Shown: positions 18,725 through 41,420 of the stretch, one piece after another | Layout: every line of letters begins with the position of its first letter | Position numbering within the stretch: the first letter of the stretch is position 1 | Assembly (NCBI GenBank): GCA_027493945.1 | Contig: JAOSJU010000001.1 | Coordinates: forward strand, 1,426,001 to 1,490,000 | Length of the DNA stretch: 64,000 nucleotides | DNA from: Burkholderiaceae bacterium | GTDB taxonomy: Bacteria > Pseudomonadota > Gammaproteobacteria > Burkholderiales > Burkholderiaceae_E | Direction of reading: 5' to 3' | The notes under the pieces: generated by a model | What the model was told of the DNA's origin: nothing | The model's database searches: none | The model's input: the letters and a program-made list of their open reading frames with translations, nothing else | Program-made: the position numbers and the translations under genes

Positions 18725-19006
18725 ATGATTCACGTCGTATTGCACGACGCCAGGGACACCGTCGCGGTGGCGGTCGTCGAGGGCATCAAGGCCGGCACGC
18801 AACTCAGTGCCTGGATCATGGACGAGGACAAGACGATCACGGTCAAGGCCACGCAGGACATCCCGATCGGACACAAGGTCGCGCTGAAGGACATGGCAGT
18901 CGGCGACACCGTCTACAAGTACGGCATCGACATCGGCAAGGTGGTGGCGCCGATCAAGGCCGGCGAGCACGCGCACGTGCACAACATCAAGACCAAGCGC
19001 TGGTAA
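18725..19006 (+). CDS. suyA: Sulfolactate sulfo-lyase, small subunit (UxaA/SAF domain)
   Basis: A 93-residue SAF-domain protein, as in the N-terminal part of altronate dehydratase and in the separate small subunit SuyA. With SuyB it removes sulfite from (R)-3-sulfolactate, leaving pyruvate. The start at 18725 has AAGGAG 8 bases upstream. The next gene, the large subunit, begins 40 bases later. Split subunits of about 90 and 390 residues match SuyAB rather than the single-chain altronate dehydratase of enterobacteria, and the following two dehydrogenases support this. A sugar-acid dehydratase remains the main alternative. Confidence 0.75.
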
Positions 19007-23989: not shown

Positions 23990-25720
23990 TCAGGCCGCTT
24001 CGCCGTCGGCGATCAGGCTCTGTCCGGGTCGAACCCGGCTGAACGCCACCGGCTCGCGGCCGATGCTCACGGCACCGTCGTGCCATCGGGCGACCGTATA
24101 GCTGGATCGCTCGGGATCGCCGGCCTCCGGGTGATCCTCGCGGAAGTGCGCGCCGCGCGAGTCCTCGCGCGAAATCGCGGCGGCGGCGATCACGCGACTC
24201 ACCGAGATCAGGCTCCTCAGGTTCATCCAGTCGTGCCAGCTCAGGTTGAACGCGCGGTCGGTATCGGCCACGCCGGTGCGCGACAGCTGCGCATCGAGCT
24301 CCGCGAGCCGCTTCGCCGCGCGCGCGAGCCCTTCGGCATTACGCAGGATGCCGACGTCGTCCCACATGCACTCATACAGCGCCTCGCGGATTTCCTCGAC
24401 ACTGCCGGGCGCCAGCGAGAACGGCGCCTCGTGCGCGGCGATGCTGCGCGCGATCGCCGTCATGTCCGGCTCGCGATACGCGGGATGCCTGCCGATCCAG
24501 GCGGCCATGCTGTCGCCGGCGATGCCGCCGAACACCGTGGAGTTGGCCACGCCGTTGCCGCCGAGGCGATTCGCGCCGTGCACGCCACCGGTGTCCTCGC
24601 CGGCGGCGAACAGGCCCGTCAGCGGCGTCGTGCAATCGACGCCGAACACGACGCCGCCCATCATGTAGTGCGCGGTCGGGACGACCTCGACCAGCCCGCC
24701 CGCGAGGTCGAAGCCGCAATCGGCGCAGCGCTCAACCATGCCCTTGAACATCCGGCGCACGTTGTCGGGCCCGAGGTGGTCCATCCGGATGTAGACGCCG
24801 CCATTGGGCGAGGTGCGCCCCGCGCGCATCTCCGAATAGATCGAGCGCGAGACGATGTCGCGCGTCGCGCGCTCGGCGCGCGGATCGTAGCGCTGCATGA
24901 AGCGCTCGCTCGCGCCGTTGAGCAACTGTCCGCCGGCGCCGCGCAGGCCCTCCTCGAGCACGGTGCCGGTCATCCTGGTGCCCGGCCCCGCGAGCAGCCC
25001 GGTGGGGTGGAACTGCACCATCTCCATGTCGCGCAGCGCGAGCCCGGCGCGCAGCGCCATCGCCAGCCCGTCGCAACTCTTGTCGCCCGACGGCGTGTGG
25101 TACTTGTACATCGTCGGACCACCGCCGGTGGCCAGCAGCACCGCCTTCGCCTGCACGAAGACGAAGTCGCCGGTGCGCATGTCGATCATCAGCACGCCGG
25201 CAAGTGCCGACCCATCGGCAGTACGCACCAGCTCGATCGCGCGATGCTCCTCGAGCCGCCCGATGCCGCGCGACCAGGCCTGCTCGGCCAGCCGGTTGAT
25301 GATCTCGATGCCGGTGAGGTCGCCCTTGTGCACCGTGCGGTCGAAGGTCTGCCCGGCGAAAGCCTTCTGGTGCACCGTGCCGTCGGGGTTGCGATCGAAG
25401 AAGCAGCCGAGCTCGTTCTCGAGCTCGCGGATGCGCTCGACCGCGCCGGTGACCAGCGTCCAGGCGAGATCCTGGTCGGACAGCCACTTGCTGCCCTCGA
25501 TCGTGTCCATGAAGTGACGCTCGATCGAGTCGCCTTCGGCCAGAGCGACGTTGTAGCCGCCCTGCACCATCCGCGTGCAGCCGCTCTTGCCGAGCAGTCC
25601 CTTCACCGCGACGATGATCGACAGTGCCGGATTCGCCTGGTGCGCGTGCAGCGCGGCGAACAGGCCCGCGCCACCGGAACCGAGGATCAGGATATCGGTC
25701 TGCAGCCTGCCCAGCTTCAC
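23990..25720 (-). CDS. Succinate dehydrogenase/fumarate reductase-like flavoprotein subunit
   Basis: A 576-residue SdhA/FrdA/NadB-family FAD protein. GSGGAGLFAALHA binds the ADP part of FAD near residue 15; substrate-site blocks FHPTGLL and GGVHGANRLGGNGVANS are present. At the place where membrane SdhA has the His that binds FAD covalently (SHTVSAQGG), this protein has GCTRMVQGG with Cys/Thr, so FAD is probably non-covalent. Last gene of the 29.8-24.0 kb operon, with the iron-sulfur and cytochrome subunits at the other end. GTG start at 25720 by overlap with the hydratase stop. It may oxidise or reduce a substituted succinate/fumarate rather than succinate itself (inference). Confidence 0.88.
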   Translation of the reverse strand: MKLGRLQTDILILGSGGAGLFAALHAHQANPALSIIVAVKGLLGKSGCTRMVQGGYNVALAEGDSIERHFMDTIEGSKWLSDQDLAWTLVTGAVERIRELENELGCFFDRNPDGTVHQKAFAGQTFDRTVHKGDLTGIEIINRLAEQAWSRGIGRLEEHRAIELVRTADGSALAGVLMIDMRTGDFVFVQAKAVLLATGGGPTMYKYHTPSGDKSCDGLAMALRAGLALRDMEMVQFHPTGLLAGPGTRMTGTVLEEGLRGAGGQLLNGASERFMQRYDPRAERATRDIVSRSIYSEMRAGRTSPNGGVYIRMDHLGPDNVRRMFKGMVERCADCGFDLAGGLVEVVPTAHYMMGGVVFGVDCTTPLTGLFAAGEDTGGVHGANRLGGNGVANSTVFGGIAGDSMAAWIGRHPAYREPDMTAIARSIAAHEAPFSLAPGSVEEIREALYECMWDDVGILRNAEGLARAAKRLAELDAQLSRTGVADTDRAFNLSWHDWMNLRSLISVSRVIAAAAISREDSRGAHFREDHPEAGDPERSSYTVARWHDGAVSIGREPVAFSRVRPGQSLIADGEAA

Positions 25721-26332
25721 CGCGACTGCACCCCGAGGCTGGCGAGCACCTGCGCGCGCCGCGCGTCGACGTCGTGCCTGACCGCGTCGTAGAGGCTGCC
25801 GCCGTGGCTGTCCATCGCCACGAGCAGCGGGCCGAAGTCGCGGATGCGGAACTTCCACAGCGACTCGGGGTTCAGGTCGTCGAGGTCGACGTCCTCGATG
25901 CTCTCGATCCAGGTCGTCTCCAGCGCCGCCGTGCCGCCGACGATCGCGAGGTAGACGCCGCCCAGGTCGCGAAACGCCGCGAGCGATGCGTCGCGCAGCC
26001 CGCCCTTGCCGACGATGATGCGCACCCCGTCGCGCTGCATCAGCGGCCGGGTGAAGCGCTCCATCCGGTCCGAGGTCGTCGTGCCGATGCACACCGGCGC
26101 GTAGCCCGCCGGATGCTCGGCGCTCGGCTCGACCTTCTTCACGTTGGGCGCGGTGTGGATCACCGCGTGTCCGCGCAGGTCGAAGCGCGTGGTTCGCCCG
26201 CGGTCGAACATCGCGATCTGCGTGGCGTCGCGAATGCCGAACAGCGTGCGCTGGAGCGTGACCGTGTCGTCGACCGCGCAGCTGCCGGACCTGCTCCTCG
26301 GTGACCGGCGTGGCGAGCTCGTAGTGGGCCAT
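25717..26332 (-). CDS. Class I fumarase/tartrate dehydratase-type hydratase, beta subunit (frameshifted near start)
   Basis: About 205 residues once the frames are joined. MAHYELATPVTEEQVRQLR from the ATG at 26332 is in one frame; VDDTVTLQRTLFGIRDATQI onward is in another. The break lies at about 26270-26282. The C-terminal part has GTTTSDRMERFTRPL and IVGKGGL, as in Fumerase_C/TtdB. With the alpha subunit it adds or removes water across a fumarate-like double bond; family activities include fumarase, L-tartrate dehydratase and mesaconase. It lies 2 bases after the alpha subunit and overlaps the flavoprotein start (GTGA). Confidence 0.84.
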
Positions 26333-26334: not shown

Positions 26335-27210
26335 TCAGAATCCGAACGACACGCCCTCGGGCGTGAATGTCGCCGTCGCGCGCCGCGCCGAGTGGCACTG
26401 CATGTTCACCGCCACCGGGTTCATCGTGATATGCGTCGCGGCGAGCTCCACGTGGACCGCGAACGCGGTGGAGTCGCCGCCCAGCCCCTGCGGGCCGACG
26501 CCGAGGCGATTGACCGCCGCGCTCAGCTGTTCCTCGATCTTCGCGCCTTCGGGGTCGCCGCAGCGACTACCCAGCTCGCGCGTGGCCGCGCGCTTGGCCA
26601 GCGCGACGCACAGGTCGGAGGTGCCGCCGATGCCCACCCCGACGATGGTGGGCGGGCAGGTCTTGCCGCCCGCCGCGATCACGCAGTCGACGACGAAGGT
26701 CTTGATCGCGTCGACGCCCTCGGCGGGAATCGCCATCTTCAGGAACGAGTTGTTCTCCGAGCCGCTTCCCTTGGGCACCATTTCGATCTGCAGCTCTTCG
26801 GAACGGTCGCTGAAGTCGACGTGGATGACCGGCACCCCGATGCCGCAGGAGGTGTGCTCGTTGCGGCGCGTGAGCGGATGCACGACCGACGAGCGCAGCG
26901 GATGCTCGCGAGTCGCGCGCTCGCAGCCCTTGCGGATCGCCTGCTTCAGCGCATGTCCGTCGACCTCGACGCCACGGCCGATCAGCACGTTGTAGATCGG
27001 GATACCCGTGTCCTGGCACAGCAGGTTGTGCGTGTCCTCGGCCACCCTGATGTTGGTGACCATCGTGGCCAGCACGCGCTGCGCGGTATGGTCGGTCTCG
27101 CCCGCCGTCAAGCGGGCGAATCCGTCCTTGATATCCGGCGGCAGGATCTTCAGCGCCCGGATGTAGAGTTCCCTGGCGGCCTCCTCGACCGCCTGCGGAT
27201 CGACTTTCAA
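26335..27210 (-). CDS. Class I fumarase/tartrate dehydratase-type hydratase, alpha subunit
   Basis: A 291-residue Fumerase (TtdA-like) subunit carrying the [4Fe-4S] cluster. Likely cluster Cys are in LLCQDTG, GGKTCPP and GGTSDLCVAL. Other conserved blocks are NEHTSCGIGVP, PKGSGSENNSFLKM and GPQGLGGD. Two-subunit class I enzymes act as fumarase, tartrate dehydratase or mesaconase. In an operon with an SDH-like complex, and possibly co-regulated with a glutamate-mutase cluster, mesaconase (mesaconate to citramalate) is an attractive but unproven role. The frame is intact. Confidence 0.88.
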   Translation of the reverse strand: MKVDPQAVEEAARELYIRALKILPPDIKDGFARLTAGETDHTAQRVLATMVTNIRVAEDTHNLLCQDTGIPIYNVLIGRGVEVDGHALKQAIRKGCERATREHPLRSSVVHPLTRRNEHTSCGIGVPVIHVDFSDRSEELQIEMVPKGSGSENNSFLKMAIPAEGVDAIKTFVVDCVIAAGGKTCPPTIVGVGIGGTSDLCVALAKRAATRELGSRCGDPEGAKIEEQLSAAVNRLGVGPQGLGGDSTAFAVHVELAATHITMNPVAVNMQCHSARRATATFTPEGVSFGF

Positions 27211-27211: not shown

Positions 27212-28215
27212 TCAGTTCGCCTTCAGCTTGCGACGCTCGACCACCTTCGCCCAATGCGCCGACTCCTTGTCGATCGCCGCAGCGAACTCCGCCGGCGAAT
27301 TGCCGACCGGGTTCATGCCTGCCACGAACAGCCGCGCCTTCATTTCGGTGTTCTGGAGCGCCTTGACCGTGTCGCGGTGGATCTTGTCGACGATCGCTTG
27401 CGGCGTGCCGGCCGGAACCATGAAGCCGAACCAGCCGGTGTTCTCGAAGCCGGGCAGCCCGTTCTCGGCGGCCGTCGGCACGTTCGGGAGCAGCGGCGAG
27501 CGCGTCTTGCTCGTCACCGCGAGCGCGCGCAGGCGGCCATTGGCCACATAGGGCGCCACCGCGGCGATGTTGCCGACCACCAGCTGGAGCGCGCCCGTCA
27601 CGAGGTCGGGGTACGAAGCGGCTTCGCCCTTGTACGGGACGTGGACGAGGTCGATGCCGGCCGCGTCGATGAAGCTTTCCCCCGCCATGTGCACCTGGCT
27701 GCCGATGCCGGCCGAGCCGAAATTGAGCTTGCCCGGCTGGCTCTTCGCGTAGGCGATGAATTCCTTCAGCGTCTTCGCCGGGATCGACGGATTCACCGTC
27801 ACCACCTGCGGGCCGCTCGCCACGTTCGTCACGGCGATGAAGTCCTTCTTCGCGTCGAAGGGCATCTTCGGATACATGTGCGGATTGACGGTAAAGATGC
27901 TGCCCGATGTCATCAGCAACGTGTAGCCGTCCGGGGCCGATTTCGCCACGACGTCGGCGCCGATGTTGCCGCCGGCGCCACCGCGGTTCTCGACGACCAC
28001 CGACTGGCCCCACATCTCGCTCAGGTCCTTGGCGAGCGCCCCCGGCGACCACGTCGGTGGTGCCGCCGGCCACGAACGGCACAACGACCTTCACCGGCCG
28101 CACGGGCCACGCGTCCTGGGCGGCGGCATGCTGCGGCGCCCAGAACGCCAGCGCACAGCTGGCGGCTGCGAGGCCCATCACGGCCCGGCGATTGCGATCT
28201 GCGATGGTTTTCAAG
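27212..28215 (-). CDS. Tripartite tricarboxylate transporter substrate-binding protein (TctC/Bug) (frameshifted)
   Basis: Periplasmic Bug-family protein of about 333 residues with a signal peptide (MGLAAASCALAFWAPQHAAAQ). PVKVVVPFVAGGTTDVVA is in one frame; ALAKDLSEMWGQSVVVENRGG and the remainder are in another. The break is at about 28040-28060. Ligand-loop motifs PYKGEA and GKLNFGSAGIGS fit the family. TTG 28215 is taken as start because GAGGAG lies 7 bases upstream. It sits between the membrane-anchor genes and the hydratase genes with no own TctAB; it may use the tctAB products encoded at 29.9-32.0 kb. Confidence 0.85.
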
Positions 28216-28274
28216 CTGTATCTCCTCTTCCGGTTCGATGCGATCGTCACGATCATGTGCGGGCGCCGCGCGCG

Positions 28275-28691
28275 CTACCCGACCAGCGCCAGCGCGAAGG
28301 CGAGGCCCGCGGCGAAGCCCAGGCCGGCGACTGCGGCGATCCAGTTCTTGCGCAGCCCCGACCAGGGCCTGAATTCGATCACGAGCAGGCGCAGCCCGCC
28401 AGTCAGGTGAATCGCCAACAGGACCACCAGCCCCCATTCGCCGAGCTTGAACAGCGGCCGATCGGCGAATCGCAGGAAGCCGTCGAGCGCCGCTTCGCCG
28501 TGAAGCGCCTGCGCGAGCGCCCAGAAGTGCAGCGGCAGGAACGCCGCAAGGGCGATGCCAGACAGGCGATGCGCGAAAAATGCCCACCACGCCGGATGGC
28601 TGCGCGCGCGAAAGTCGTTGCGGCGCGCCGGCGCGCGCCTTGCCGCCGGCTCCCTGCGCCCCGTCATGTCGTTGCTGGCGGCCGCGTTCAT
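28275..28691 (-). CDS. Succinate dehydrogenase-like membrane anchor, cytochrome b subunit (SdhC/D type, second anchor)
   Basis: A 138-residue protein with three membrane helices. HPAWWAFFAHRLSGIALAAF and LPLHFWAL resemble the quinone/heme b region of Sdh_cyt proteins; RLSG and the following His (heme ligand) are the family marks. The ATG overlaps the stop of the first anchor gene (ATGA). It would hold the iron-sulfur and flavoprotein subunits to the inner membrane and pass electrons to or from quinone. The 59-base gap to tctC contains its ribosome-binding site only. Confidence 0.8.
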   Translation of the reverse strand: MNAAASNDMTGRREPAARRAPARRNDFRARSHPAWWAFFAHRLSGIALAAFLPLHFWALAQALHGEAALDGFLRFADRPLFKLGEWGLVVLLAIHLTGGLRLLVIEFRPWSGLRKNWIAAVAGLGFAAGLAFALALVG

Positions 28692-29071
28692 GCGATCACC
28701 GCATAGACAGCGCGCAGGCCGAGCGCGGCCAGCGCCAGCGCCACCACGATCGCCGCGGCATTGGCGAGCTTCGGGCGCCAGCCCAGCCATTCCTCCGCGA
28801 CGCGCGCGAGCCCGATCGGGACATGCACCGCACAGGCGACGACGAACGCACCGTAGAACGCCGCCACCAGCCAGCTGCCCTGCGTTCGCGCGAGGATCTC
28901 CGCGCCGCTCAACCCGCCGCGCACCGCGAAGACGATGGTTGCGAGGTGAACGGCCACGAACAGCGCGAGCGCCATCGCGCTCAGTCGCTGCAGGTACCAG
29001 AGCCTGGCTTGCGTAGCGACGGAGCTCACCGCCCGCCCCCCGGGCTGCGCGTTTCGCGGCCCATGCGTCAC
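28688..29071 (-). CDS. Succinate dehydrogenase-like membrane anchor, cytochrome b subunit (first anchor)
   Basis: A 127-residue three-helix protein: QARLWYLQRLSAMALALFVAVHLATIVFAV, with RLSA and a heme-type His in helix one, and a second His in ACAVHVPIGLARV. It resembles fumarate reductase FrdC/FrdD-like anchors. The GTG at 29071 is chosen from the GTGA overlap with the iron-sulfur subunit stop; a later GTG at 29029 is possible. It forms the membrane part of the complex together with the next gene. Confidence 0.75.
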   Translation of the reverse strand: MTHGPRNAQPGGRAVSSVATQARLWYLQRLSAMALALFVAVHLATIVFAVRGGLSGAEILARTQGSWLVAAFYGAFVVACAVHVPIGLARVAEEWLGWRPKLANAAAIVVALALAALGLRAVYAVIA

Positions 29072-29784
29072 AATTCTCCGCGCATCGCGCGCCGTGCGGC
29101 GAGCCGCTTGAGCCCGGAGATGCCGGCGGTCGGCGCAATCGCCTTCGGGCATCGCTCGGTGCACGATCCCTGCGTGTGGCAGGCGTGGCAGCCGGCGTCG
29201 CCCGCGACCGCCCGCAGCCGCTCGGCCTGGTCGATGTCGCGCAGGTCGTTGACCAGCGTCCACGCGCGATTGAGCGCCGCCGGCCCGAGGTAGTCGGGCC
29301 GCCAGGCGACCACGTCGCAGGAGGCGTAGCAGGCGCCGCAGCCGATGCATTCGATGCCCGCGTTCGCGGCGATGCGCTCGGGCGACGCAGGGTCGATACG
29401 GGCGAAATCGTCGTGGCGCGCCCTCGCGCCGCGGAAACGCCCCTTCGCGCGCGCCCACTTGTCGAAGAACTCGCCCATGTCGGTGGCGAGGTCCTTGATG
29501 ACCGGCAGGTTCGCGAGCGGTGCGATCTCCAGCGAATCGCCGTCGACCACTTTCGACACGTGCGTGCGACAGGTCCAGCGCGCGACGCCGTTGACGGTCA
29601 TCGCGCACGAGCCGCACATGCCGACCCGACAGGAAAAGCGGTAGCTCAGCGTCGGCTCGAGCCGGCGCTGGATGTAGGTGACGACGTCGAGCACCGTCTG
29701 GCTGGCCTGCCGCGGCACCTCGTAGGTGGAGAAATCGCCGCCGGCGCCGCCGCGCCAGACCTTCACGCGCAAGTTGCTGGGCAT
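29068..29784 (-). CDS. Succinate dehydrogenase/fumarate reductase-like iron-sulfur subunit
   Basis: A 238-residue SdhB/FrdB-type protein. The N-terminal ferredoxin domain has CRVGMCGSC plus a fourth Cys (WTCRTH) for [2Fe-2S]. The C-terminal part has CIGCGACYASC for [4Fe-4S] and CHACHTQGSCTERCP for [3Fe-4S]. It passes electrons between the FAD subunit and quinone. First gene of the operon: the 21-bp motif shared with the mutase operon lies 22-42 bases before its start at 29784. ATG at 29784 gives MPSNLRVKVWRGG, a good N terminus. Confidence 0.9.
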   Translation of the reverse strand: MPSNLRVKVWRGGAGGDFSTYEVPRQASQTVLDVVTYIQRRLEPTLSYRFSCRVGMCGSCAMTVNGVARWTCRTHVSKVVDGDSLEIAPLANLPVIKDLATDMGEFFDKWARAKGRFRGARARHDDFARIDPASPERIAANAGIECIGCGACYASCDVVAWRPDYLGPAALNRAWTLVNDLRDIDQAERLRAVAGDAGCHACHTQGSCTERCPKAIAPTAGISGLKRLAARRAMRGEL

Positions 29785-29876: not shown

Positions 29877-31410
29877 TCAGGCTCGGGCCGCAACCCGGGG
29901 GGACCGCGCGTTGCGGCGTTTCTGTTGCACCGCGCGCACGAGCGGCCAGAACAGCCCGGCGAGGGCGAGCAGCATCACGGCGGCGCTGATCGGGCGGCGA
30001 AACAGCACCGTCCAGTCGTTGTCGAAGCTCACCATCATGGTCATGAAATTGGTTTCGGCCAGCGGCCCGAGGATCGTGCCCAGCACCAGCGGGGCGATCG
30101 GGAAGCGGAAGCGCTCGAACAGGTAACCCACCAGGCCGAAGGCGGAGATCACGTACAGGTCGGACAGGCTGTTGCGCGCGGCGAACGCGCCGACGAAGCA
30201 GAACACCACCACGAAGGCCGAGACGATGGCCTCGGGCGCATCGAGCACCTTGCACAACGGCTTGATCGCGAAGTAGCCCAGCACGCACATGCCGATGATC
30301 GACAGGAACACCGCCGCGAACACCGTGTAGACCAAGGCCGGTGCTGCTCACGAACACCTGCGGGCCGGGCTGGATGCCGTGCAGCAGGAACGCCGCCAGG
30401 ATGATCGCGGTGGCGCCGCTGCCCGGAATGCCCATCGCCAGCAGCGGCACCAGCGCGCCCCCCACCGACGCGGTGGCCGCCGACTTGGCCGCCACGATGC
30501 CCTCGGGCGCTCCGGTGCCCAGCTGCTTGCGGTTGGCGCCGTACTGGCTCTCCAGCCCGTAGGCGACGAAGGCCGAGACCGTCGCCCCGGCCCCCGGCAC
30601 GATACCCACCACCACGCCGGTGAGCGTGCCGCGCAGCAGCGTGAACTTCATCCGCGCGATTTCGGCCCAGCGCGGCAGCGCAGTGCGAAAGCGCGCCTGC
30701 CCGTCGCCCGCCGCGCCGGCTTCGGAGGCAAAGCCCGCGCGCAGCCGCGTGAGCACTTCGCCGATGCCGTAGGCGCCCACCATCACCAGCAGGAACTCGA
30801 TGCCGTCGAGCAGGAACGGCTGCTCGAAGGCGAAGCGCTCGGCGCCGTAGATCGCGTCCACGCCCACCGTCGCGATCAGCAAGCCCATGCACAGGCTCAC
30901 CAGCGCGTTCACCACCGAGTCGCCCGACAGGGCCACCACGCTGATCAGTCCGAAGAACAGGATCGCGAAGAACTCGGGCGACGAAAAGCTCAGCGCCACG
31001 CGTGCCACCGGCTCGGCCATCGCCACCATCATCACCGCCGAAGCAATTCCGCCGATGAACGAGGCGGCCAGCGACCAGCCCAGCGCGCGCGCGGCCTGCC
31101 CCTTGCGCGTCATCTCGTAGCCGTCCCACAGCAGCGGCACGTCCATCGGCTCGCCGGGAATGCGGAACAGGATCGAGGTGATCGCCCCCGCGTAGGTGCC
31201 CGAGGCGTACATCGCGGTGAGCAGGATCAGCGCCGGACCCACGCCCATCTTGTAGGTGAAGGGCAGCGCCAGCACCACTCCCATCACCAGCGTGAGCCCG
31301 GGCAGCACCGCGACCAGCATGCCCAGCACCAGCCCGATGAGCAGCACCAGGAAGTTCAGCGGCGTGAGCACCGTCGCCACGCCGCCGAGCAGGTGCGTCA
31401 GCACGTCCAT
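29877..31410 (-). CDS. tctA: Tripartite tricarboxylate transporter large membrane subunit (frameshifted)
   Basis: About 511 residues and about 12 helices. Typical blocks are LIGLVLGMLVAVLPGLTLVMG, GIVPGAGATVSAFVAYGLE and LLAMGIPGSGATAIILAAFL. The frame changes at about 30335-30340: ...QVFVSSTGL in one, LVYTVFAAVFLS onward in the other; one extra base explains it. Without the correction the protein would run on as an unrelated basic tail. TctA is the proton- or sodium-coupled transport unit for carboxylates delivered by TctC. It follows tctB by 13 bases and ends the operon that begins at 38617. Confidence 0.88.
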
Positions 31411-31423
31411 CGTTCGTGCTCCT

Positions 31424-32027
31424 TCAGCTCACGCCCAGCAGGCGCAGCAGCGCCAGCGATACTTCGCGAAACGGCCCCGCGCCCAGCGGCAGCGAGATGT
31501 AGGCCACGCGCATGAAGATCACGATCAGCGCGAAGCTGCCCGCCACTCCGATCGCGCACGCCAGCAGCGGCCGCCTCAGGCCGCCGATCAGCATGAATGC
31601 CGCCAGGAACACCGCCGTGGCCACGAAGAATCCCAGCCAGTCGACGCCGAGCGCGAACGCCGCGATCAGGACGATTCCGGCCAGCAGCCGCCCCGGGTAC
31701 TCGCGCTGCGGTTGCTGCCCCGAGTCCGGCGTAGCGCCGGCGGCCGCCGCCGTCTCCTCGGCGACCGGCGCGGGCCCGGCCGGGTTCTGATGCAACTCGC
31801 CGGTGAGCCCCTCGGCGGTGAAGCTGCTCTTCACCACCAGCCGCTTGACGACCTCGTACAGGCACAACGCGCCCATGATCACGATGATCGCCTTCGGCCA
31901 GAAATCGGGCCCGATGCGCCGCCCCCTCGGCGGCGCGCGTGTCGATCTGCATCGCCGCCCAGTACAGCAGCGCCGAGACCAGCAGCATCACCGGGTGCGG
32001 CAGCGCCCACCTCAGGCGGTGGGTCAT
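31424..32027 (-). CDS. tctB: Tripartite tricarboxylate transporter small membrane subunit (frameshifted)
   Basis: About 200 residues. The first helix (HPVMLLVSALLYWAAMQI) is in one frame, then RIGPDFWPKAIIVIMGALCL and three further helices are in another. The break lies at about 31925-31935, next to a CCCCC run. TctB proteins have four helices and pair with TctA. It is located between tctC and tctA in normal order. An Ala/Pro-rich cytoplasmic loop lies between helices two and three. Confidence 0.82.
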
Positions 32028-32049
32028 CGCAGATCGCTCCCAAACACCC

Positions 32050-33006
32050 TCATCTGGCGCTCGCGTGCTTCTTCATCGCCTCGAGCTCGCCACGCAGGAA
32101 CGCCAACGCTTCCTTCGCCGGGATGTAGCTGTCCGACTCGGCGAGCTGGTCCTCGAGATATCGCGCATAGTCCGCTGACTTCGCGACCTTCGCGAGTTCG
32201 TCCGAGAGCAGCTTGACCTTCTCGGGATCGGTCCCCGCCTTCATGGTGACCATGCGGAACTGGGGCATCGTGATGTCGAAGCCGAGCTCCTTCGAGACCG
32301 GCACCCCGGCGAACGCAGGGTGTCGCTTCTCGCCGAAAAGGATCACCGGACGCATCTGCTTGCCGTCGATGAAGTTGCGCACGTCGCCCGGCTGCTCGTA
32401 GAGGAGGTCGGCGTGCCCGCCGAGGATCGCCGAGTAGCGCTCGCCGGGCTTGGAAAAGGGCACGCTCACAAGCTTCAGGCCGCGCCGCACGAAATAATTG
32501 ACGGTCATGTCGTCGGGGCTGCCGAACCCGGTGACCGCGACCTTGAGCGGTCGCGTCTTCGCCTCGCGCTCCACGTCCGCCCAAGTCTTGATCGGGCCGT
32601 TCTCGGCCGCGAGAAACGCCGAGGGTTGCCGGATCATGATCGCCACCGGGATCAGCGCGTCGAGGTTCCAGCTGGCGTTCGGGTCCACCAACAGGCCGAA
32701 GGTGTCGCCGGTCATGATCGAAATCGTGTAACCGTCCGCGGGGGCCGACAGCATCTTGTTCAGGCCCGTTCGCCCGGTGGCGCCTGGCACGTTGATGATC
32801 GGAAACGACGCCTTCAGGCTGTCCTCGAGCATCTTTCCGGCCTTGCGAGCGACCGCGTCGGCGCCACCGCCGGGCCCCCAGGGCACGATGAACTCGACCG
32901 GCCGCGAAGGGTACTTATCCTGCGAGCGGGCGGCTCGCGACACGACGGACAGGGCCGCCGCCGATACGATCCCGGCGACGACAGCTCTTCTCTCGATCGA
33001 ATGCAT
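32050..33006 (-). CDS. tctC: Tripartite tricarboxylate transporter substrate-binding protein (TctC/Bug)
   Basis: A 318-residue periplasmic Bug protein. The signal peptide ends at about residue 29 (SVVSRAARSQ). YPSRPVEFIVPWGPGGGADAVAR and ATGRTGLNKM are family motifs, and FGSPDDM lies in the ligand loop. It is followed at normal spacing by tctB and tctA, forming a full transporter for the carboxylate used by the glutamate-mutase-type operon. The frame is intact. Confidence 0.9.
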   Translation of the reverse strand: MHSIERRAVVAGIVSAAALSVVSRAARSQDKYPSRPVEFIVPWGPGGGADAVARKAGKMLEDSLKASFPIINVPGATGRTGLNKMLSAPADGYTISIMTGDTFGLLVDPNASWNLDALIPVAIMIRQPSAFLAAENGPIKTWADVEREAKTRPLKVAVTGFGSPDDMTVNYFVRRGLKLVSVPFSKPGERYSAILGGHADLLYEQPGDVRNFIDGKQMRPVILFGEKRHPAFAGVPVSKELGFDITMPQFRMVTMKAGTDPEKVKLLSDELAKVAKSADYARYLEDQLAESDSYIPAKEALAFLRGELEAMKKHASAR

Positions 33007-33036
33007 GGTTGTCTCCTCGTTGTTGATGGATTGTGC

Positions 33037-34026
33037 TCAGCGGACGCGTAACAGAAGCTTTCCCCGGCTCTCGCCGGCCTCCAGGAAGCGGTGCGCATCG
33101 GCCGCCTCCTCGAGGGGAAATACCCGATCAATCGTGACCTTCAAGCGCCCTTCGCCGACCCATCGGAACAGGTCATCGGTGCGTCGCAGGATCTCGTCAC
33201 GGTCGGCCGTGTAGTCGGCGAGGTGGGGGCGGGTGAAGAAGACCGAGCCGGCCTCGCCCAGTTCGATCGGCTCGATTGAGGACACCGGCCCCGAGCTCGC
33301 GCCGTACAGAATGCAGGTGCCGCGCCGGCGCAGGCTGCGAATGCTGCGCGCGATCGTGTCGAACCCCACCGAGTCGTAGACCACGTCGACGCCGCGCCCT
33401 TCGGTGAGGCGGCGCACCTCGTCGCGGAAATCCTGGCTGCGATACAGGATGACTTCGTCGGCGCCGCGCGCGCGCGCGATCGCTGCCTTCTCCTCGCTGC
33501 CCACGGTCGCGATCACTCGCGCGCCCCGCAATCTGGCGACCTGTGTCAGCAGCTGTCCGACCCCGCCGGCGGCCGCATGGACCGGGCAGGTGTCGCCGGC
33601 CTCGAGTTGGAACGCCGAGTGCGCCAGGTAGTGCGCGGTGCAACCCTGCAGCATCAACGTGACCGCGACTTCGTCGGAGACGCCGTCGGGTACCGGCACG
33701 GCCCGCCATGCCGGCACGCACGCGTATTGGGCGTAGCTGCCCCGCGCAAGGCACCACGCCACCCGGTCGCCCGGCGCAACGCCGGCGACGCCCTCGCCCA
33801 GTGCCGACACACGTCCGACGCCCTCCATGCCGAGTCCCATCGGCAGCGGCGTCCGGTACGTCTGCGACTTCGCATAGGTGCCGTTGCGCATGTAGATGTC
33901 GATGAAGTTCAGGCCTGCCAGGTTGACCTCGACCTGCACCTCGCCCGGCCCGGGAGCATGCGGTTCGACCTCGCGCAGGGTCATCACGTCCGGCGCGCCG
34001 AAGCCGTCGATCCGGATCGCGCGCAT
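33037..34026 (-). CDS. Quinone oxidoreductase-like zinc-free medium-chain dehydrogenase/reductase
   Basis: A 329-residue MDR protein: GroES-like N-terminal domain (GPGEVQVEVNLAGLNFIDIYMRNG) and Rossmann domain with AAAGGVGQLLTQVARLRGARVIATV. It has the QOR marks, lacks the structural-zinc Cys cluster, and should reduce a quinone or an enone with NADPH. The ATG overlaps the stop of glmE (ATGA), so it belongs to the mutase operon. Its role there is unknown; reduction of an unsaturated dicarboxylate derivative is one idea. Confidence 0.88.
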   Translation of the reverse strand: MRAIRIDGFGAPDVMTLREVEPHAPGPGEVQVEVNLAGLNFIDIYMRNGTYAKSQTYRTPLPMGLGMEGVGRVSALGEGVAGVAPGDRVAWCLARGSYAQYACVPAWRAVPVPDGVSDEVAVTLMLQGCTAHYLAHSAFQLEAGDTCPVHAAAGGVGQLLTQVARLRGARVIATVGSEEKAAIARARGADEVILYRSQDFRDEVRRLTEGRGVDVVYDSVGFDTIARSIRSLRRRGTCILYGASSGPVSSIEPIELGEAGSVFFTRPHLADYTADRDEILRRTDDLFRWVGEGRLKVTIDRVFPLEEAADAHRFLEAGESRGKLLLRVR

Positions 34027-35551
34027 CACGGCTCGCTCCCGTGTTCCGGCGCGTCTTTCGCCCATCCATCGGACAGCAACACGCCCAACGGCTCGGACAA
34101 CTCGTAGACGCTGGAGACGGCAAGGTCGTAACCCATCTCGAGCTTCTCGCGGCTGGCCCGGCGCGCCAGCCGCACCCGATGCTCTTCGAGCACCTCGGGA
34201 TCGATCGGCACGGCGCCGGGGTCCAGGATGCGCAGATAGCCGTCGGCATCGCGCGCCGGTAGCACGCGCGACGCCACCTGGCGGTTGGGCGACCAAGGCA
34301 CGTCGAGGACCCCTGCCTCGAAGGCCCTCACCGTACCGATCGCAACGTCGCCATCACCGATCTCGAGCACACGGTCGACGATACCGCGCACCTCCCGCCG
34401 GATCAGCGCCTTCTCTCGCTCGTATTCGGGAAGGCCGTCGAGGCGCAGGTTGCGTGCCGGTAGATCGCCATCCGCGTCATCCGCAAGCCTTCGGCGTTGG
34501 CCTGAGGCGTCGGGATGCCGAGCGCCTCGTGCGTCGACTTGGTCGTCACCGACACCGCGCCGCCGACCGCCGCCACCGTGCCTCCGTAGGCGACCAGCGC
34601 CGCGGCCTGCGCCTCGTCGTGCGGCCACGCACCCATCCAGTGCAGAGAGGTAATCGGCGTCTCGACGTCGGTGTAGCCGCGCTTGGCCAGGTACTCCTGC
34701 GCCATCTCCTCGCAGACCGAGATCGCCGCGGCGTCCTGCACAAGGTGCAGTGTCTGCGCGAGCTCCAGTCCGTACTGCCGCACGCCCTGAGCGGCGGCGA
34801 GCAAACAGTCGAGCACCGCAATCGCAATCGCGATGCACGGGGGGATGTTGGTCCCGGTGAGGAATCCCGGCTGACGGCGATGCAGCAGCACGCCGCGCGT
34901 TGAATAGAGCGCGGCGAGCCGGTCGAGGTACTGGTAGTTCCGGATGCCGTCCTCGATTGAGTACTCCTTCGTGTACGAAGTCGTGTATGCAATACCGGAC
35001 CCAAGAAAGCCGGAATAGCCGGCCGCGTAGCCGATCTCGCCGACCAGCTTCGGCATCGCAGTGCCGGTCAGCATGATCGCCGGCTTGTCGATCGCCTCGA
35101 CAAGTTCGCGGCACGCGACCACGCCGTAATTGACGATCGGAAATCCGTTCAGAAGCGACCGGCCGGCAGACTCGGACTCCTCCGAGCCCCGCTCCGCCTG
35201 CGCGAAATGTTCGTTGCGCGTGTAGCTATCGGTCGTCGTCGGCACGATATCGGCGAGGCCGTCGCGATCGAGCGTCTGCATCAGCGCCTTTTGCAGCCGC
35301 AGCGTGCCGAAGCCGCCCCGAGGCTGCGTCAGGCAGCGACGCTCGGCCTTCGCCCGCCGTAACACCTCGGCAAGCCGCTTGTGGCGCGCGAGGCCGAGGT
35401 GGAACTCGACCGCCTCGTCTAGGTCGACCGCCGCACCGGTCGGCCAGCGCGCCAGGTTCTCGGCACGCATCGCGTCGAATTCGTCCCAGGGAATCGCCGC
35501 CTCGCCGAGCGGCCGCTTCGTGCGAAGCGACTCCGAAATCACGCTAGCCAT
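34026..35551 (-). CDS. glmE: Methylaspartate (glutamate) mutase epsilon subunit (frameshifted)
   Basis: About 508 residues, near the family's ~480. It forms the TIM-barrel catalytic half of the B12-dependent mutase interconverting glutamate and 3-methylaspartate. Family stretches include LTQPRGGFGTLRLQKALMQ, TTTDSYTRNEHFAQAERG, LLNGFPIVNYGV, GYAAGYSGFLGSGIAYTTSY, and GGAVSVTTKSTHEALGIPT. The frame breaks near 34440-34480; the C-terminal part (DGLPEYEREKALIRREVRGI) continues in another frame. The start at 35551 overlaps the glmL stop by 8 bases. Related B12 mutases on other dicarboxylates are possible. Confidence 0.86.
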
Positions 35552-36950
35552 GCGCGTTCTCCTCCCCGAGTTGGACAAGGCTCGACCGCGCGAGCGCGAA
35601 AGCGGCCGCCGGCTCATATTCCGCAAGCAACCCGGCGGCGTAGAGCAGGTAATCGCGGTCGAGCCACAGGGCGGCCGCGCGCGGCGCGAGCGACGACGGA
35701 TCGCGACCGTCGGCGAGCGCCGCCGAGAGCAGGGCGTGCGGCTCGGGTGCCGCGGCGAGCACCCCGCCGGTGCCGATCACCGCGTTCAGCCGGGTCAGGT
35801 CCTTGCCGCGCTGGACGCGCACCGGGCCCTGAGCCGTGAACACGGTCTCGATGCGCCCGGCGTGCCGAGCGACCGCGATGCGCACCGCGGCACCGGCCAG
35901 CGCGCGATCGATCGCGCGTTCCTCGTTGTTGCGAGGCAGGCGGTCGACGTCGCGCGCCAGTTCCTCGACCAACTCACGCGTGCGCGCGGCGCCGAGCCCG
36001 GCGTCGCGAGCGATCGACTCGAGCCCTGCGACCTCGACAATGGTCAGCGCGTTGTGCCGCATGCCGAGGTCACCCTCGACGGTCCGCTTGGCGTAGGGCT
36101 CGGGAAGCCCGTACGGCAGCACGCCGGGCTCCGCCGGCTCGCCCTTGCCGATCGAGTGCACGTCGGTCGTCGCACCGCCGGGGTCGATCACCATCAGGTC
36201 GCCGAGTCCGGGCTCGCCACCCGCGCCTTCGGCAAGCAGCCGCGCACCCTCGAGCACCGCGGCCGGGGTCGGCATCAGGACCCGGTCGAACTTCGCCTGC
36301 GCGCGGTCGATGCCCTTGGCCGTGACGATCCTCGCCATGAACAGCTCGCGGATCGCCTTGCGCGCGGGCTCGATCGACAGCACGTTCAGCTCCGGCATCA
36401 CGTTGTCAGTCACCAGCGCGAGCTTGCCCGCCGCGGCGAGGCTCCGCGCAACCTCGTCGGCAGCCTCGCGGTTGCCGGCGACCACGAACGGACAACCGAG
36501 ACTGCTGGCGGCCAGCGCGCGGGCGTTGTGGAGAATGACGTCGCCGTTGCCACCGTCGGTACCGCCGCACAGCAGCAGCAGGTCGGGGGCGAGATCCGCC
36601 AGTCGACGCAGGTCGCTCGCAGTGAGGCGGTAGGCGAAGCTACCGACCAGCTTAGCGCCAGCGCCCAGTGCGGCCTGTCGCGCTGCCTCGGCAGTGAGCT
36701 CGCGCACCAGTCCGACGGTGGCCATCCGCAGGCCCCCGGCGGCGCTGCTCGACGCGAGCCGGTAGCGAAACCCCGGCAGCCCGCCCAACTCGCCGGCCAG
36801 TCCGGCCAGCGCGGCGTCCAGCCCCAAGTTGACGTCGCTGGTCACGGTCGACGGTGCCTGCGCCGTCGCGACGATCCGGCAAGCGTCGAGGTCGACCGCG
36901 CGCAGCTTCGTGAACGTACTGCCGAAGTCGATGAGCAGCGCGGCGCTCAT
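35544..36950 (-). CDS. glmL: GlmL/MutL-type ATPase, methylaspartate mutase accessory protein
   Basis: A 468-residue ASKHA-fold ATPase starting MSAALLIDFGSTFTKLRAVD (phosphate-1 motif). Later blocks LLLCGGTDGGNGDVI, VIDPGGATTDVHSIG (phosphate-2) and NAVIGTGGVLA (adenosine) follow. GlmL genes lie between glmS and glmE in methylaspartate mutase operons and the protein is thought to reactivate the B12 enzyme or act as its chaperone. The start overlaps the glmS stop (ATGA), as expected. The frame is intact. Confidence 0.9.
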   Translation of the reverse strand: MSAALLIDFGSTFTKLRAVDLDACRIVATAQAPSTVTSDVNLGLDAALAGLAGELGGLPGFRYRLASSSAAGGLRMATVGLVRELTAEAARQAALGAGAKLVGSFAYRLTASDLRRLADLAPDLLLLCGGTDGGNGDVILHNARALAASSLGCPFVVAGNREAADEVARSLAAAGKLALVTDNVMPELNVLSIEPARKAIRELFMARIVTAKGIDRAQAKFDRVLMPTPAAVLEGARLLAEGAGGEPGLGDLMVIDPGGATTDVHSIGKGEPAEPGVLPYGLPEPYAKRTVEGDLGMRHNALTIVEVAGLESIARDAGLGAARTRELVEELARDVDRLPRNNEERAIDRALAGAAVRIAVARHAGRIETVFTAQGPVRVQRGKDLTRLNAVIGTGGVLAAAPEPHALLSAALADGRDPSSLAPRAAALWLDRDYLLYAAGLLAEYEPAAAFALARSSLVQLGEENAHG

Positions 36951-37387
36951 GCCTGTCGGCTGCGCGGTCTCTCGGCGCGCGCCCCGAAGTCCTGCGCCAA
37001 CGCCTCGAGCACCGCACCGACGCGGGTACCTGGCGGGAAGGCGCGGTCGAAGCCCATGTCGAGGAACTTGCGCTCGACCTCCGTCCAGGGCGTCTTGCCG
37101 ACCACCAGGTTGCCGCCGACGTAGATCAGGATGCCCTCGAGGCCGGCTTCAACGCACAGATCGCGAAAGCCCCGGCAGTCGATTTCACCCTGCCCGTACA
37201 GCGACGAGACCATGATGCCATCGGCGTCGGTCTCGATCGCCGCCTTGACGAAGTCCTGGGCCGGCGTCAGCGCGCCGAGCGCGACGACCTTGTAGCCGGC
37301 CTTCTCGAGCGCGAGGCTCAGGATCCGGTTGCCGACGATGTGCGTGTCGGCGCCGATGACTCCCGTCACCAGCATGCGCTGCTTCAT
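36947..37387 (-). CDS. glmS: Methylaspartate (glutamate) mutase sigma subunit, cobalamin-binding
   Basis: A 146-residue B12-binding protein. GADTHIVGN is the DxHxxG motif that supplies the lower His ligand to cobalt; SSLYGQGE and YVGGNLVVGK are the other two family segments. It combines with GlmE to form the active mutase. ATG at 37387 is preferred (GGGGGAG six bases upstream) over an earlier in-frame Met. The literal end of the enolase-superfamily gene overlaps its first 200 bases in another frame, which is probably an artefact. Confidence 0.9.
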   Translation of the reverse strand: MKQRMLVTGVIGADTHIVGNRILSLALEKAGYKVVALGALTPAQDFVKAAIETDADGIMVSSLYGQGEIDCRGFRDLCVEAGLEGILIYVGGNLVVGKTPWTEVERKFLDMGFDRAFPPGTRVGAVLEALAQDFGARAERPRSRQA

Positions 37388-38477
37388 GCGGGTCTCCCCC
37401 GTGTCGGTCAATCTCGTAATACGCGAGCGCATCCCCGTCGGGAACGCCGCAGAATCCGGGCTGCAGTACGATCGCGCCGTCTTCGAAGGCGAGCGGACGC
37501 CCGAGCAGCCCCGCGTGCGGCTTGAGGAAGCCGTTCATCTCGCCGGCGTTGTCGATGTGGCGCGCGGCGACGCAGGCCTCCATCCAGCAGCCGAGGTCGC
37601 AGGCCACGCCGTTGCCGAGCACCGGGATCATTCCGAGCGCGCGGATCCTTTCGATCGCCCCGACGAGGTCGTCCAGGCTCACCAGCTTCATCAGCTTCAC
37701 CTTGACGTAGCGCGCGGCGCCGAGCCGTGCGGCACGCTCGATGTCGGCGAGCCCGTAAATCGATTCGTCGAGCATCAGCGGCACCGTCGAGTGCGGCACC
37801 ACCGACATGTGCGCGTCCCAGTCGCCGGCCGCGCACGGCTGCTCGAAGAGCTCGAGGCCCGTCGGATCGAGCGCGCCGGCGAAGCGCTGTGCCTGCTGTG
37901 CCGTGTAACCTTGGTTGGCGTCCAGGCGCAGGCGGGCGCGTCCTGCCACCCGCGCCTGGATCAGCGCGACGCGCCGCAAGTCGGACTCGACGTCGAACCC
38001 GACCTTCACCTTCAGCGTTTGGTAGCCCGCACCGAGCAGCCGCTCGATCTCGGTCTCGAGCGCGCCGTCGTCGGTCTCGTTGAGGATGCCAAGAATCGGT
38101 ACCCGGGTCGGTACGTCGACCGTCAGGAGCGGGTGCGCACGCAACGCATCGAGCGCGGTCATGAACGCGGTGGCGAGAAACGGCGACGACGGCGCGACCG
38201 GCGATACCTTGCGAGCGACCTCACGAGCCGATGCTCCGGCCAGCGCTGTCGCGAGCGCACGCGCCCCGCCCCACGCGCCCTCGATGGTTTCGTCGGTATA
38301 GCCGGTCAGCAGCGTGGCCTCGCCGGCCCCGCGGCGGCCCTCGTCATCGTGCATCAGCACGACCAACGTGTCGAACGCCGTGACCGGGCCGAAGGCCAAC
38401 TTGTACGGGCGAACCAGCGGCACCCGCAGGCGGACGACCTCGATCCGGATCGGCGCGTCGCGCGGCTCGTTCGTCAC
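37185..38477 (-). CDS. Mandelate racemase/muconate-lactonizing enzyme family protein (3' end uncertain)
   Basis: Enolase-superfamily enzyme with a capping domain, then TLKVKVG (acid/base Lys), LDANQGY, LFEQPC and LMLDES metal-ligand blocks, KLMK and GNGVACDLGCWME. It resembles dipeptide epimerase/N-acylamino acid racemase-type members more than classical methylaspartate ammonia-lyase, but that lyase belongs to the same superfamily. Recognisable similarity stops near 37410. The literal frame runs on to 37185 inside glmS as a basic, non-homologous tail, suggesting an indel around the GGGGG run at about 37396-37402. The GTG start at 38477 overlaps the stop of the small membrane peptide (GTGA). 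It could act on the amino acid handled by the mutase. Confidence 0.8.
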   Translation of the reverse strand: MTNEPRDAPIRIEVVRLRVPLVRPYKLAFGPVTAFDTLVVLMHDDEGRRGAGEATLLTGYTDETIEGAWGGARALATALAGASAREVARKVSPVAPSSPFLATAFMTALDALRAHPLLTVDVPTRVPILGILNETDDGALETEIERLLGAGYQTLKVKVGFDVESDLRRVALIQARVAGRARLRLDANQGYTAQQAQRFAGALDPTGLELFEQPCAAGDWDAHMSVVPHSTVPLMLDESIYGLADIERAARLGAARYVKVKLMKLVSLDDLVGAIERIRALGMIPVLGNGVACDLGCWMEACVAARHIDNAGEMNGFLKPHAGLLGRPLAFEDGAIVLQPGFCGVPDGDALAYYEIDRHGGDPHEAAHAGDGSHRRRHAHRRQPDPEPRAREGRLQGRRARRADAGPGLRQGGDRDRRRWHHGLVAVRAG

Positions 38478-38617
38478 GTCGCGACACGAACAGTCGAGGC
38501 GTCGAGGCGCGCCAAGGCGAGCGCGCCCAACGGGATGACAATCGCCAGCGCGACGATGCCGAAAGTCAATGATCCGGCAAGCGCCCCGGCGATCAGCACG
38601 ACCAGGTTGGTGTCCAT
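38474..38617 (-). CDS. 47-residue single-span membrane peptide, first gene of the mutase operon
   Basis: MDTNLVVLIAGALAGSLTFG starts a peptide with one or two hydrophobic helices (residues about 4-40) and a short polar tail. It is not a protein I recognise. Evidence for translation is its position directly behind the operon promoter, the GTGA overlap with the next gene and the good hydrophobic pattern. A role as transporter partner is possible but unsupported. Confidence 0.45.
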   Translation of the reverse strand: MDTNLVVLIAGALAGSLTFGIVALAIVIPLGALALARLDASTVRVAT

Positions 38618-38740: not shown

Positions 38741-39643
38741 ATGTCCTCGATCCGCACGATGAAGACCTTCCTCGCGGTCGCCCGGCACGGCAGCTTCGCG
38801 GCAGCCGGCGCGGAAATCGGGCTGAGCGCGGCCGCGGTTGGCCTGCAGATGCGCGCCCTCGAGGAGAACCTGAAGCAGCGGCTGTTCGATCGCAGCGGCC
38901 GCTCGGTGGTGCTGAACACGGCGGGCCGGCGCGCGATTCCGCGAATCGAGGAACTCGTACTGCGCTACGAGGACCTGATCGGCGGCCGCGACGGCGACTC
39001 GCTGTCGGGCACGGTCGTGATGGGCGCGCTGGTGTCGACACTGATGGGCGCCTTCGCCGATGCGCTGTGGTCGCTCAAGCGCGAGAACCCGGGGCTGGAA
39101 GTGAAGCTCTTCGCGGGGCAATCCAGTGACTTCGCCAACCGCGTCGAGCAGGGGCTGCTCGACGCGGCGATCGTCACCCGCCCGCCGCGCCCGCTGCCGC
39201 GCAGCCTCGCGTGGACGCAGCTGTACGTCGAGCCGATGGTGATGATCGTTCCGCGCCGGCCGCATTTCGAGCTGCCGAAAGACCCGCTGCAGGCGCTGCG
39301 GGAATCGCCGTTCATCCGCTTCGACCGCGAAACCTGGACCGGCCTGCTGGTGCGCGACGTGCTGAACCGCTGCCGCGTCGAAGTCCGCGACGGGATGGAG
39401 TTGAACTCGGTCGAAGCGATCCCGGCGATCGTGCGCCAGGGTTTCGGCGTGTCGATCGTGCCGAAACTCGCCAACGTGCGCTGGACCGAAGACCGCGAAC
39501 TGCGCGTCGTCGAGTTGCCCGGCGTCGACGTGCGCAGGCGCGTCGGCCTGCTCGAGCGCTCGCGGCACGCGCGGATGCGCTTCACCGGTGCGATCAAGCG
39601 CTACTTCACCGATGCCGGACGCCGCAAGAGGGCGGGGGCATAG
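38741..39643 (+). CDS. LysR-family transcriptional regulator
   Basis: A 300-residue LTTR. The N-terminal HTH (residues about 3-60; MKTFLAVARHGSFAAAGAEI, then LFDRSGRSVVLN) is followed by a two-lobed effector domain. It is divergent from the mutase operon with a 123-base shared control region. Because the same motif occurs before the SDH-like operon, it may control both. The effector is probably the imported carboxylate or a product (inference). Confidence 0.9.
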   Translation: MSSIRTMKTFLAVARHGSFAAAGAEIGLSAAAVGLQMRALEENLKQRLFDRSGRSVVLNTAGRRAIPRIEELVLRYEDLIGGRDGDSLSGTVVMGALVSTLMGAFADALWSLKRENPGLEVKLFAGQSSDFANRVEQGLLDAAIVTRPPRPLPRSLAWTQLYVEPMVMIVPRRPHFELPKDPLQALRESPFIRFDRETWTGLLVRDVLNRCRVEVRDGMELNSVEAIPAIVRQGFGVSIVPKLANVRWTEDRELRVVELPGVDVRRRVGLLERSRHARMRFTGAIKRYFTDAGRRKRAGA

Positions 39644-41228: not shown

Positions 41229-41394
41229 CTCAGAGCCTGTGAATGAATCCGGCGCGCCCGAGCGGCTGGCCCGAACAGCGTCAATCGAGGCGCAAAGCGC
41301 AGCCGTAGCACGGGCTACGGCGAGCATTTGCAACGAAGAGTGGCGCCGTTCGGGACGGACGAGCGGGCGTGACGGATTCTTTCACAGGCTCTCA
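41229..41394. repeat. MITE-like element with IS1182-type terminal inverted repeats
   Basis: About 166 bp with no coding capacity. The left end reads AGAGCCTGTGAATGAATCCG; the right end read inward reads AGAGCCTGTGAAAGAATCCG. The 13 bases GAGAGCCTGTGAA at the right end are identical to the right end of the IS1182 element at 17832. It lies in the 254-base gap between petC and sspA, so it is probably transcribed as part of the pet-ssp region. Confidence 0.65.
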
Positions 41395-41420
41395 CCCTGC
41401 ATCGGGTCGGCGCCGCGCCG

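Follow-up and report, generated by a model that had tools for sequence, protein, structure and literature searches.

We propose that an operon in a 64,000-nucleotide stretch of Burkholderiaceae bacterium contig JAOSJU010000001.1 (assembly GCA_027493945.1, positions 1,426,001 to 1,490,000; the whole stretch is called the window below) encodes a glutamate mutase-like, B12-dependent enzyme that acts on a sulfonate. Between 38477 and 29877, the minus strand holds genes for an enolase-superfamily enzyme of the muconate lactonizing enzyme (MLE) subgroup, the mutase proteins GlmS, GlmL and GlmE, a medium-chain dehydrogenase/reductase (MDR) family enzyme, and TctC, TctB and TctA. These matches to Pfam and NCBIfam profiles bear out the initial annotation, which had read the same gene set as encoding a B12-dependent mutase of the GlmES type together with a dedicated tripartite carboxylate importer, and had rightly judged the host to be of an aerobic type. 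That annotation placed the operon in glutamate and 3-methylaspartate chemistry, a role that we find contradicted by the substrate pocket of the mutase, by the lack of an ammonia-lyase match in the genome (88.8% complete) and by a neighborhood of sulfonate catabolism genes. The operon very probably serves the breakdown of sulfonates. The fuller explanation, in which a small sulfonated carboxylic acid is degraded and glutamate is not handled, has about an even chance of being correct, and our confidence in the exact substrate pair, 2- and 3-sulfopropionate, is likewise evenly balanced.

By curated models the mutase subunits resemble glutamate mutase. GlmS, the B12-binding subunit (36947..37387; this and all operon genes are on the minus strand), has a DxHxxG motif that reads DTHIVG and scores 175.7 bits against TIGR01501 (cut-off 135.8). 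GlmL, the accessory or reactivating protein (35544..36950), scores 569.8 bits against NF040745 (cut-off 475). A one-base indel near 34460 splits the gene of the catalytic subunit GlmE (34027..35551), and the two resulting frames match model positions 9-349 and 362-473 of TIGR01503 with 329.9 and 109.9 bits, each below the cut-off of 390.1. All three intact relatives tested exceed that cut-off (451.9 bits at locus L009, 436.5 at L014 and 479.6 at L044), and automatic annotation would therefore name these proteins glutamate mutase.

The substrate pocket of GlmE is altered throughout the clade. The GlmE of L009 aligns with the Clostridium cochlearium enzyme (1cb7) gaplessly over 463 residues. In glutamate mutase, as described in passages of PMC9545868, the glycyl part of the substrate, which migrates, is bound by R66, R149 and E171, and the acrylate part by R100 and Y177. 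All 46 clade sequences that extend over positions 149 and 171 have leucine at both (the window and 45 related loci; L052 starts downstream of them). In the same 46, R66, R100, N123, Y177 and Y181 are retained, P180 is replaced by serine and position 95 is threonine (isoleucine or valine in six canonical sequences), while K326 and E330 are kept in 47 of 47. Because R100 and Y177 stay while R149 and E171 have become leucine, the acrylate half of the pocket appears preserved and the half for the migrating group rebuilt without an amine site. The six canonical GlmE, each encoded beside an annotated methylaspartate ammonia-lyase, all retain R66, R149, H150, E171 and P180, and the more distant GlmE of L061 and L062 likewise retain R149 and E171. 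These six controls are among eight regions fetched from a plasmid search with GlmE (28 records, only relatives below 60% identity); they were picked after the ammonia-lyase annotation had been seen, and their flanks reach only 4-8 kb. The clade is monophyletic with respect to 11 outgroup GlmE (support 0.999) and, judging by record titles, spans at least the Alpha-, Beta- and Gammaproteobacteria. Genomes of the same genus also hold GlmE paralogs with other pockets, L005 (genome G004; R149V, E171S, Y177S) and L007 and L008 (genome G002, copies about 4 kb apart; R66Q, R149N, E171N/S, Y177E), and these residues suggest further non-glutamate GlmE classes.

The genes that accompany clade GlmE point to sulfonates. 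A scan of genome contigs yielded 46 relative loci chosen by close similarity to the window GlmE, mostly metagenome-assembled according to their titles; 18 are at least 19 kb long and many are short contigs. Counted by strict identity, an MLE relative occurs in 31 loci, the MDR enzyme in 24, TctC in 22, TctA in 14, Xsc, SauS and TauE in 8 each, SucC-like and SucD-like genes in 6 each, SdhA in 5, SuyB in 4 and FumA in 1. Looser family clusters give 13 loci for Xsc, 9 for SauS and 6 for TauE. We report both values for Xsc because the Xsc of L018, only 47% identical, exceeds the Xsc cut-off; the higher value stems from single-linkage clusters that may take in other thiamine pyrophosphate enzymes, and the lower (8 of 46) applies at 55% identity or more. 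Xsc from loci L017 and L018 exceeds its curated cut-off, as does SauS from L048 and L026. At least one of Xsc, SauS, SuyB and TauE is present in 24 loci by family clusters and in 20 by strict identity, lying within a few kb of GlmE in several different gene orders, and none was found in the 4-8 kb flanks of the six canonical loci. With SuyAB, Xsc, SauS and TauE, the gene context is that of sulfonate catabolism and not of glutamate or C5 dicarboxylates.

The link extends to whole genomes. At E <= 1e-100, the 46 relative genomes, which span several classes, hold Xsc in 40 cases, SuyB in 31, both in 26 and either in 45; the only genome with neither match, that of L045, carries an Xsc fragment where the locus ends. 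Among 399 genomes of the order, scored at a different threshold (E <= 1e-120), we find the mutase in 7 (the window's own included), Xsc in 49, SuyB in 71 and either in 83. Xsc or SuyB is present in all 7 mutase-positive genomes versus 76 of 392 mutase-negative ones. SuyB alone is found in 7 of the 7 (Fisher p 4e-6) and Xsc in 6 (p 2e-5), p-values that are indicative only, as the 7 genomes span 4 genera and are not independent. The two genome sets overlap: at least G090 and G134 of the order set look identical to G463 and G429 of the other.

The MLE-type gene (~37400..38477; MR_MLE_C, 105 bits; a one-base indel shifts the frame of the 3' end) is paired with glmE in 31 of the 46 loci, with starts 1.5-9.5 kb apart, a recurrence that argues against chance. 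Aligned to 1jpm, positions K156, K158, D186, E212, D237, K259 and K261 are kept in 32 of 32 sequences; we take these to be the KxK, the three acidic metal ligands and the second lysine of the MLE subgroup. An AlphaFold2 model of the L009 homolog (pLDDT 94) has dipeptide epimerases and muconate lactonizing enzyme as its nearest folds. It shares with L-Ala-D/L-Glu epimerase and muconate lactonizing enzyme (1jpm, 1muc) the fold (TM 0.84) and the lysine and acidic positions, but identity is at most 27% among the 50 folds listed. The structure search returned generic MLE/epimerase matches that do not fix the substrate. Together, the conserved positions and the epimerase or racemase folds fit racemization at an alpha carbon, so that, on the model, the epimerase role offered in the initial annotation still stands as an option, and we propose that the enzyme is a racemase of the sulfonated substrate. 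A second enolase-superfamily enzyme is encoded elsewhere in the window (13405-14550, minus strand), nearest to talarate/galactarate dehydratase and far below the cut-off. An MLE relative (43% identity) also lies with TctCBA on a plasmid of Sulfitobacter sp. LC.270.F.C4 (L063, 5688-20271) in a cluster that holds no annotated mutase and further includes a putative sulfate exporter, a MetK-family gene, a CoA ligase, a CoA ester lyase and biotin carboxylase genes; this is possibly a mutase-free version of the pathway.

Next to glmE lies the MDR-family, quinone oxidoreductase-like reductase (33037..34026). Among its relatives in the PDB are quinone oxidoreductases and 2-haloacrylate reductase (1wly); one possibility is that it reduces acrylate-type by-products. 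The importer genes, all with Pfam matches, are tctC (32050..33006), tctB (31424..31882) and tctA (29877..31410, in two frames split near 30335). Tripartite tricarboxylate transporter (TTT) importers for sulfolactate have been described in passages of PMC5812351.

The operon does not end at tctA, where the initial annotation had closed it, but continues on the same strand past 29877 to 23990. This extension encodes an SdhB/FrdB-like iron-sulfur subunit (29068..29784), two Sdh cytochrome-type membrane subunits (28688..29014 and 28275..28691), a second TctC (tctC2, 27212..28256, frame split near 28043), the alpha (26335..27210) and beta (25717..26211, start moved by an indel near 26275) subunits of a class I (Fe-S) fumarase-family hydratase, and an SdhA/FrdA-like flavoprotein (23990..25717). 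A LysR-type regulator with HTH_1 and LysR_substrate domains (38741..39643, plus strand) is divergent from the operon and is present in L009 and L010 too. Gene order from LysR to SdhA is identical in the near relative L009 (GlmE 95% identity), where a TauE gene stands between LysR and MLE.

The succinate dehydrogenase (SDH)-like and fumarase genes are distinct from further copies in the same genome. The operon SdhA is 34% identical to a separate SdhA, and the operon fumarase 36% identical to a separate class I fumarase. SdhA relatives linked to GlmE are found in L009, L028, L036, L042 and L044 (54-94% identical), and L023 adds a 54-residue piece. Arg287, His355 and Arg390, which we take to be the catalytic residues in E. 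coli FrdA numbering, are conserved wherever covered. The position of FrdA Thr244, presumably at the substrate carboxylate, is glutamate in the operon SdhA and in all 5 GlmE-linked relatives that cover it, and threonine in the separate SdhA and in E. coli FrdA.

Convergent to the operon, a plus-strand group (18725-23932) encodes homologs of both subunits of (R)-sulfolactate sulfo-lyase in a sulfonate context. The small subunit, SuyA-like (18725..19006), has no NCBIfam match and is named from gene order and homology. The large subunit, SuyB-like (19047..20222), is 91% identical to a Cupriavidus pinatubonensis gene that lies downstream of hpsN-hpsO and is annotated as a UxaA family hydrolase; its sole NCBIfam match is galactarate dehydratase, far below the cut-off. 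The group continues with a sulfolactate dehydrogenase-like protein (21216..22217; best NCBIfam match NF040650, 225.8 bits, below the cut-off of 500) and an ornithine cyclodeaminase-family gene, and it ends with a TauE/SafE-family permease (23195..23932; Pfam TauE, 119 bits). Beside it we noted by eye a putative IS1182-type transposase (16335-17774, minus strand). The sole Rfam match in the window at the gathering threshold is a tRNA-Thr.

Compared with L009, one-base indels break the frames of the MLE 3' end, glmE, tctA, tctC2 and the fumarase beta gene. Frames are also broken outside the operon, in a cytochrome bc1 gene (41392-43704, seen by eye) and in the genome's Xsc match (C1:1019363-1021151, in two frames). 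Because these genes are split as well, we take the indels to be probable assembly errors rather than operon decay, and the splits suggest base-level errors across the whole assembly. The small open reading frame ahead of MLE (38474..38617) is a different case. Previously read as a leading small membrane peptide, it is the remnant of a TauE/SafE-type permease, 47 residues long and carrying internal deletions relative to the intact L009 protein (about 247 residues, from 6334, Pfam TauE 80.3 bits), which is encoded directly upstream of MLE.

Based on these data, we propose the following pathway. TctCBA would import a small sulfonated carboxylic acid, and the MLE-type enzyme would racemize or epimerize its alpha carbon. 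GlmS-GlmE with adenosylcobalamin, kept active by GlmL, would then interconvert 2- and 3-sulfopropionate by a 1,2-shift of SO3. As the acrylate-binding residues are intact, the shift could follow the fragmentation-recombination mechanism proposed for glutamate mutase: acrylate would be the common fragment, and a sulfite radical would take the part of the glycyl radical. 3-Sulfopropionate is an analog of succinate, 3-sulfoacrylate of fumarate and 3-sulfolactate of malate. The SDH-like complex may oxidize 3-sulfopropionate to 3-sulfoacrylate, and the class I fumarase may hydrate this to 3-sulfolactate; the pair, distinct from the separate copies of the genome, would offer a direct route to the SuyAB substrate. 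From sulfolactate, SuyAB would release pyruvate and sulfite, and the sulfite would leave the cell through TauE-type permeases. The mutase would add access to the branched isomer 2-sulfopropionate, the analog of methylmalonate. The genes, the changed mutase pocket, the association with sulfonate genes and the SDH and fumarase paralogs distinct from others in the genome are observed here, and we infer all substrates, the direction, what the MLE enzyme does and the migration of SO3. It is conceivable, at somewhat less than an even chance, that this is the first B12-dependent mutase found to move a sulfonate between neighboring carbons (2- to 3-sulfopropionate), and that it founds a sulfo-analog of the methylmalonate-succinate-fumarate-malate route ending in sulfolactate and sulfite.

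Several observations weigh against this scheme. An SDH-like flavoprotein lies near GlmE in only 5 of the 46 relatives and fumarase in 1, which leaves the downstream arm less than fixed. No sulfonate marker is in view in 22 loci by family clusters or 26 by strict identity, many of them on short contigs, and MLE is undetected in 15, some of which are cut by contig ends. SauS, found in 8 loci, and SucC/SucD-like ligase genes, found in 6, suggest a sulfoacetyl-CoA route for which the scheme has no need, and the Sulfitobacter MLE relative sits in its TctCBA cluster apart from any annotated mutase. With R149 a positive charge is lost, a change that is not obviously suited to a sulfonate. As the loci were chosen by similarity, the uniform pocket describes the clade and not proteobacterial GlmE generally, and the mutase genomes of the order are, as noted, few and not independent. 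For 2-sulfopropionate, the open-access literature that we searched gave no natural source or report; were 3-sulfopropionate itself imported, the SDH-fumarase-SuyAB arm would need no mutase. We therefore hold the sulfonate role with high confidence and the substrate pair with only even confidence, in view of the rare SDH/fumarase linkage, the SauS and SucCD genes, the tentative role of the MDR enzyme, the Sulfitobacter cluster and the lack of a source for 2-sulfopropionate.

Other chemistries would also place the mutase among sulfonate genes. It might interconvert 2-methyl-3-sulfopropionate and 4-sulfobutyrate, with CH2SO3 migrating, and so lead to sulfoacetyl-CoA, SauS and Xsc. This would account for the SauS genes, 6 of 8 of which are accompanied by a SucC-like gene, and for the thiolase, OB-fold and short-chain dehydrogenase/reductase (SDR) genes near GlmE in some loci, and the hydrophobic pair L149 and L171 could take an extra carbon. 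We nevertheless judge it unlikely, as it leaves unexplained the operon's SDH, fumarase and SuyAB, which suit C3 sulfonates; moreover, a sulfomethyl radical is, by chemical reasoning, poorly stabilized compared with a sulfite radical, and no complete beta-oxidation set is found among the annotated clusters. In L018, L020, L024 and L042, a biotin carrier, a PYC/OadA-type carboxyltransferase, a thiolase with an OB-fold partner and SDR genes stand near GlmE in varying combinations. Carboxylation-type schemes for the biotin genes of L018, L042 and L063 gave no coherent route.

Alternatively, the mutase may run in reverse, converting imported 3-sulfopropionate to 2-sulfopropionate for the MLE enzyme and MDR reductase. 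3-Sulfopropionate is, according to passages of PMC11489063, a known product of anaerobic dihydroxypropanesulfonate degradation. The MLE and reductase genes are often neighbors, and the reductase counts 2-haloacrylate reductase among its relatives. However, the operon's SDH, fumarase and SuyAB already provide a route from 3-sulfopropionate, and we are not aware of a reaction that sets sulfite free from 2-sulfopropionate, so we give this direction only a slim chance.

A third explanation is that the mutase acts on a sulfur-free carboxylic acid and that the sulfonate genes are no more than its companions in a catabolic island. The 22 loci with no marker in view would fit, and the genome-level link could mirror a broad catabolic capacity. 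Set against this are Xsc or SuyB in 45 of 46 genomes versus 83 of 399 in the order, the presence of SuyB, Xsc, SauS and TauE close to GlmE in several gene orders, and the retained R66, which suggests a charged migrating group; we regard a sulfur-free substrate as quite improbable. A true glutamate mutase, with the enolase-superfamily protein replacing the ammonia-lyase and fumarase acting as mesaconase, is scarcely credible. Its GlmS, GlmL and intact clade GlmE do exceed the methylaspartate mutase cut-offs, a class I fumarase is present, and three fetched alphaproteobacterial glutamate mutase loci carry a fumarase gene too. Yet R149 and E171, absent from each of the 46 clade sequences covering them, are kept in all 6 GlmE beside an ammonia-lyase. 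Sulfonate markers recur around the clade and are not seen in the 4-8 kb flanks of those six loci, and a PF07476 search of the 88.8% complete genome found no methylaspartate ammonia-lyase; on the active-site residues and the missing ammonia-lyase we discarded the glutamate/methylaspartate pathway. Finally, the MLE enzyme may conceivably be a lyase that eliminates sulfite from 3-sulfopropionate and leaves the acrylate to the reductase, but this would make the operon's SDH, fumarase and SuyAB superfluous. Sulfosuccinate as mutase substrate fails by reasoning, as its 1,2-shift would be degenerate or unproductive.

The sulfopropionate scheme can be set beside known systems. Glutamate mutase (GlmES/MutSE with GlmL) is alike in its subunits, its B12-binding motif and its acrylate-side R100 and Y177, but differs in its R149 and E171 and in its ammonia-lyase; the present mutase is instead accompanied by MLE, TctCBA and sulfonate genes. 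Sulfolactate degradation in C. pinatubonensis and Roseovarius nubinhibens (SuyAB; Xsc) is similar in SuyB and in the TTT importer, although the passages on these two species mention no mutase, MLE or SDH-fumarase pair, which here would feed the sulfolactate end. Enterococcus gilvus HpfXYZ, as far as the passages on it go, forms 3-sulfopropionate in fermentation with an acylating dehydrogenase and a SucCD-like ligase, resembling the SauS and SucC-like genes of six relatives, whereas the genes here accompany a mutase in clusters that are mostly proteobacterial. In L041 (4094-6847), CobS- and CobT-like genes, below cut-offs, lie close to glmE, Xsc and suyAB, and the same gene clusters occur in L039 and L050; perhaps they supply cobalamin. 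Among the papers listed from the mostly open-access literature that we searched, none deals with a sulfonate mutase or with 2-sulfopropionate metabolism, and none connects methylaspartate mutase with Xsc or sulfolactate. Within that scope, the initial statement that no described pathway has this exact gene set also holds.

According to passages of PMC11489063, bacterial degradation of 3-sulfopropionate was previously unreported apart from a thesis, which has it proceed via sulfoacrylate and sulfolactate, and Bilophila wadsworthia uses 3-sulfopropionate as an electron acceptor. If our proposal is true, the enzymes of a widespread clade, scored by a curated model as glutamate mutase, would act on sulfonates, and radical B12 chemistry would gain a new migrating group. 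It would also put forward genes for the degradation of C3 sulfocarboxylates such as 3-sulfopropionate.

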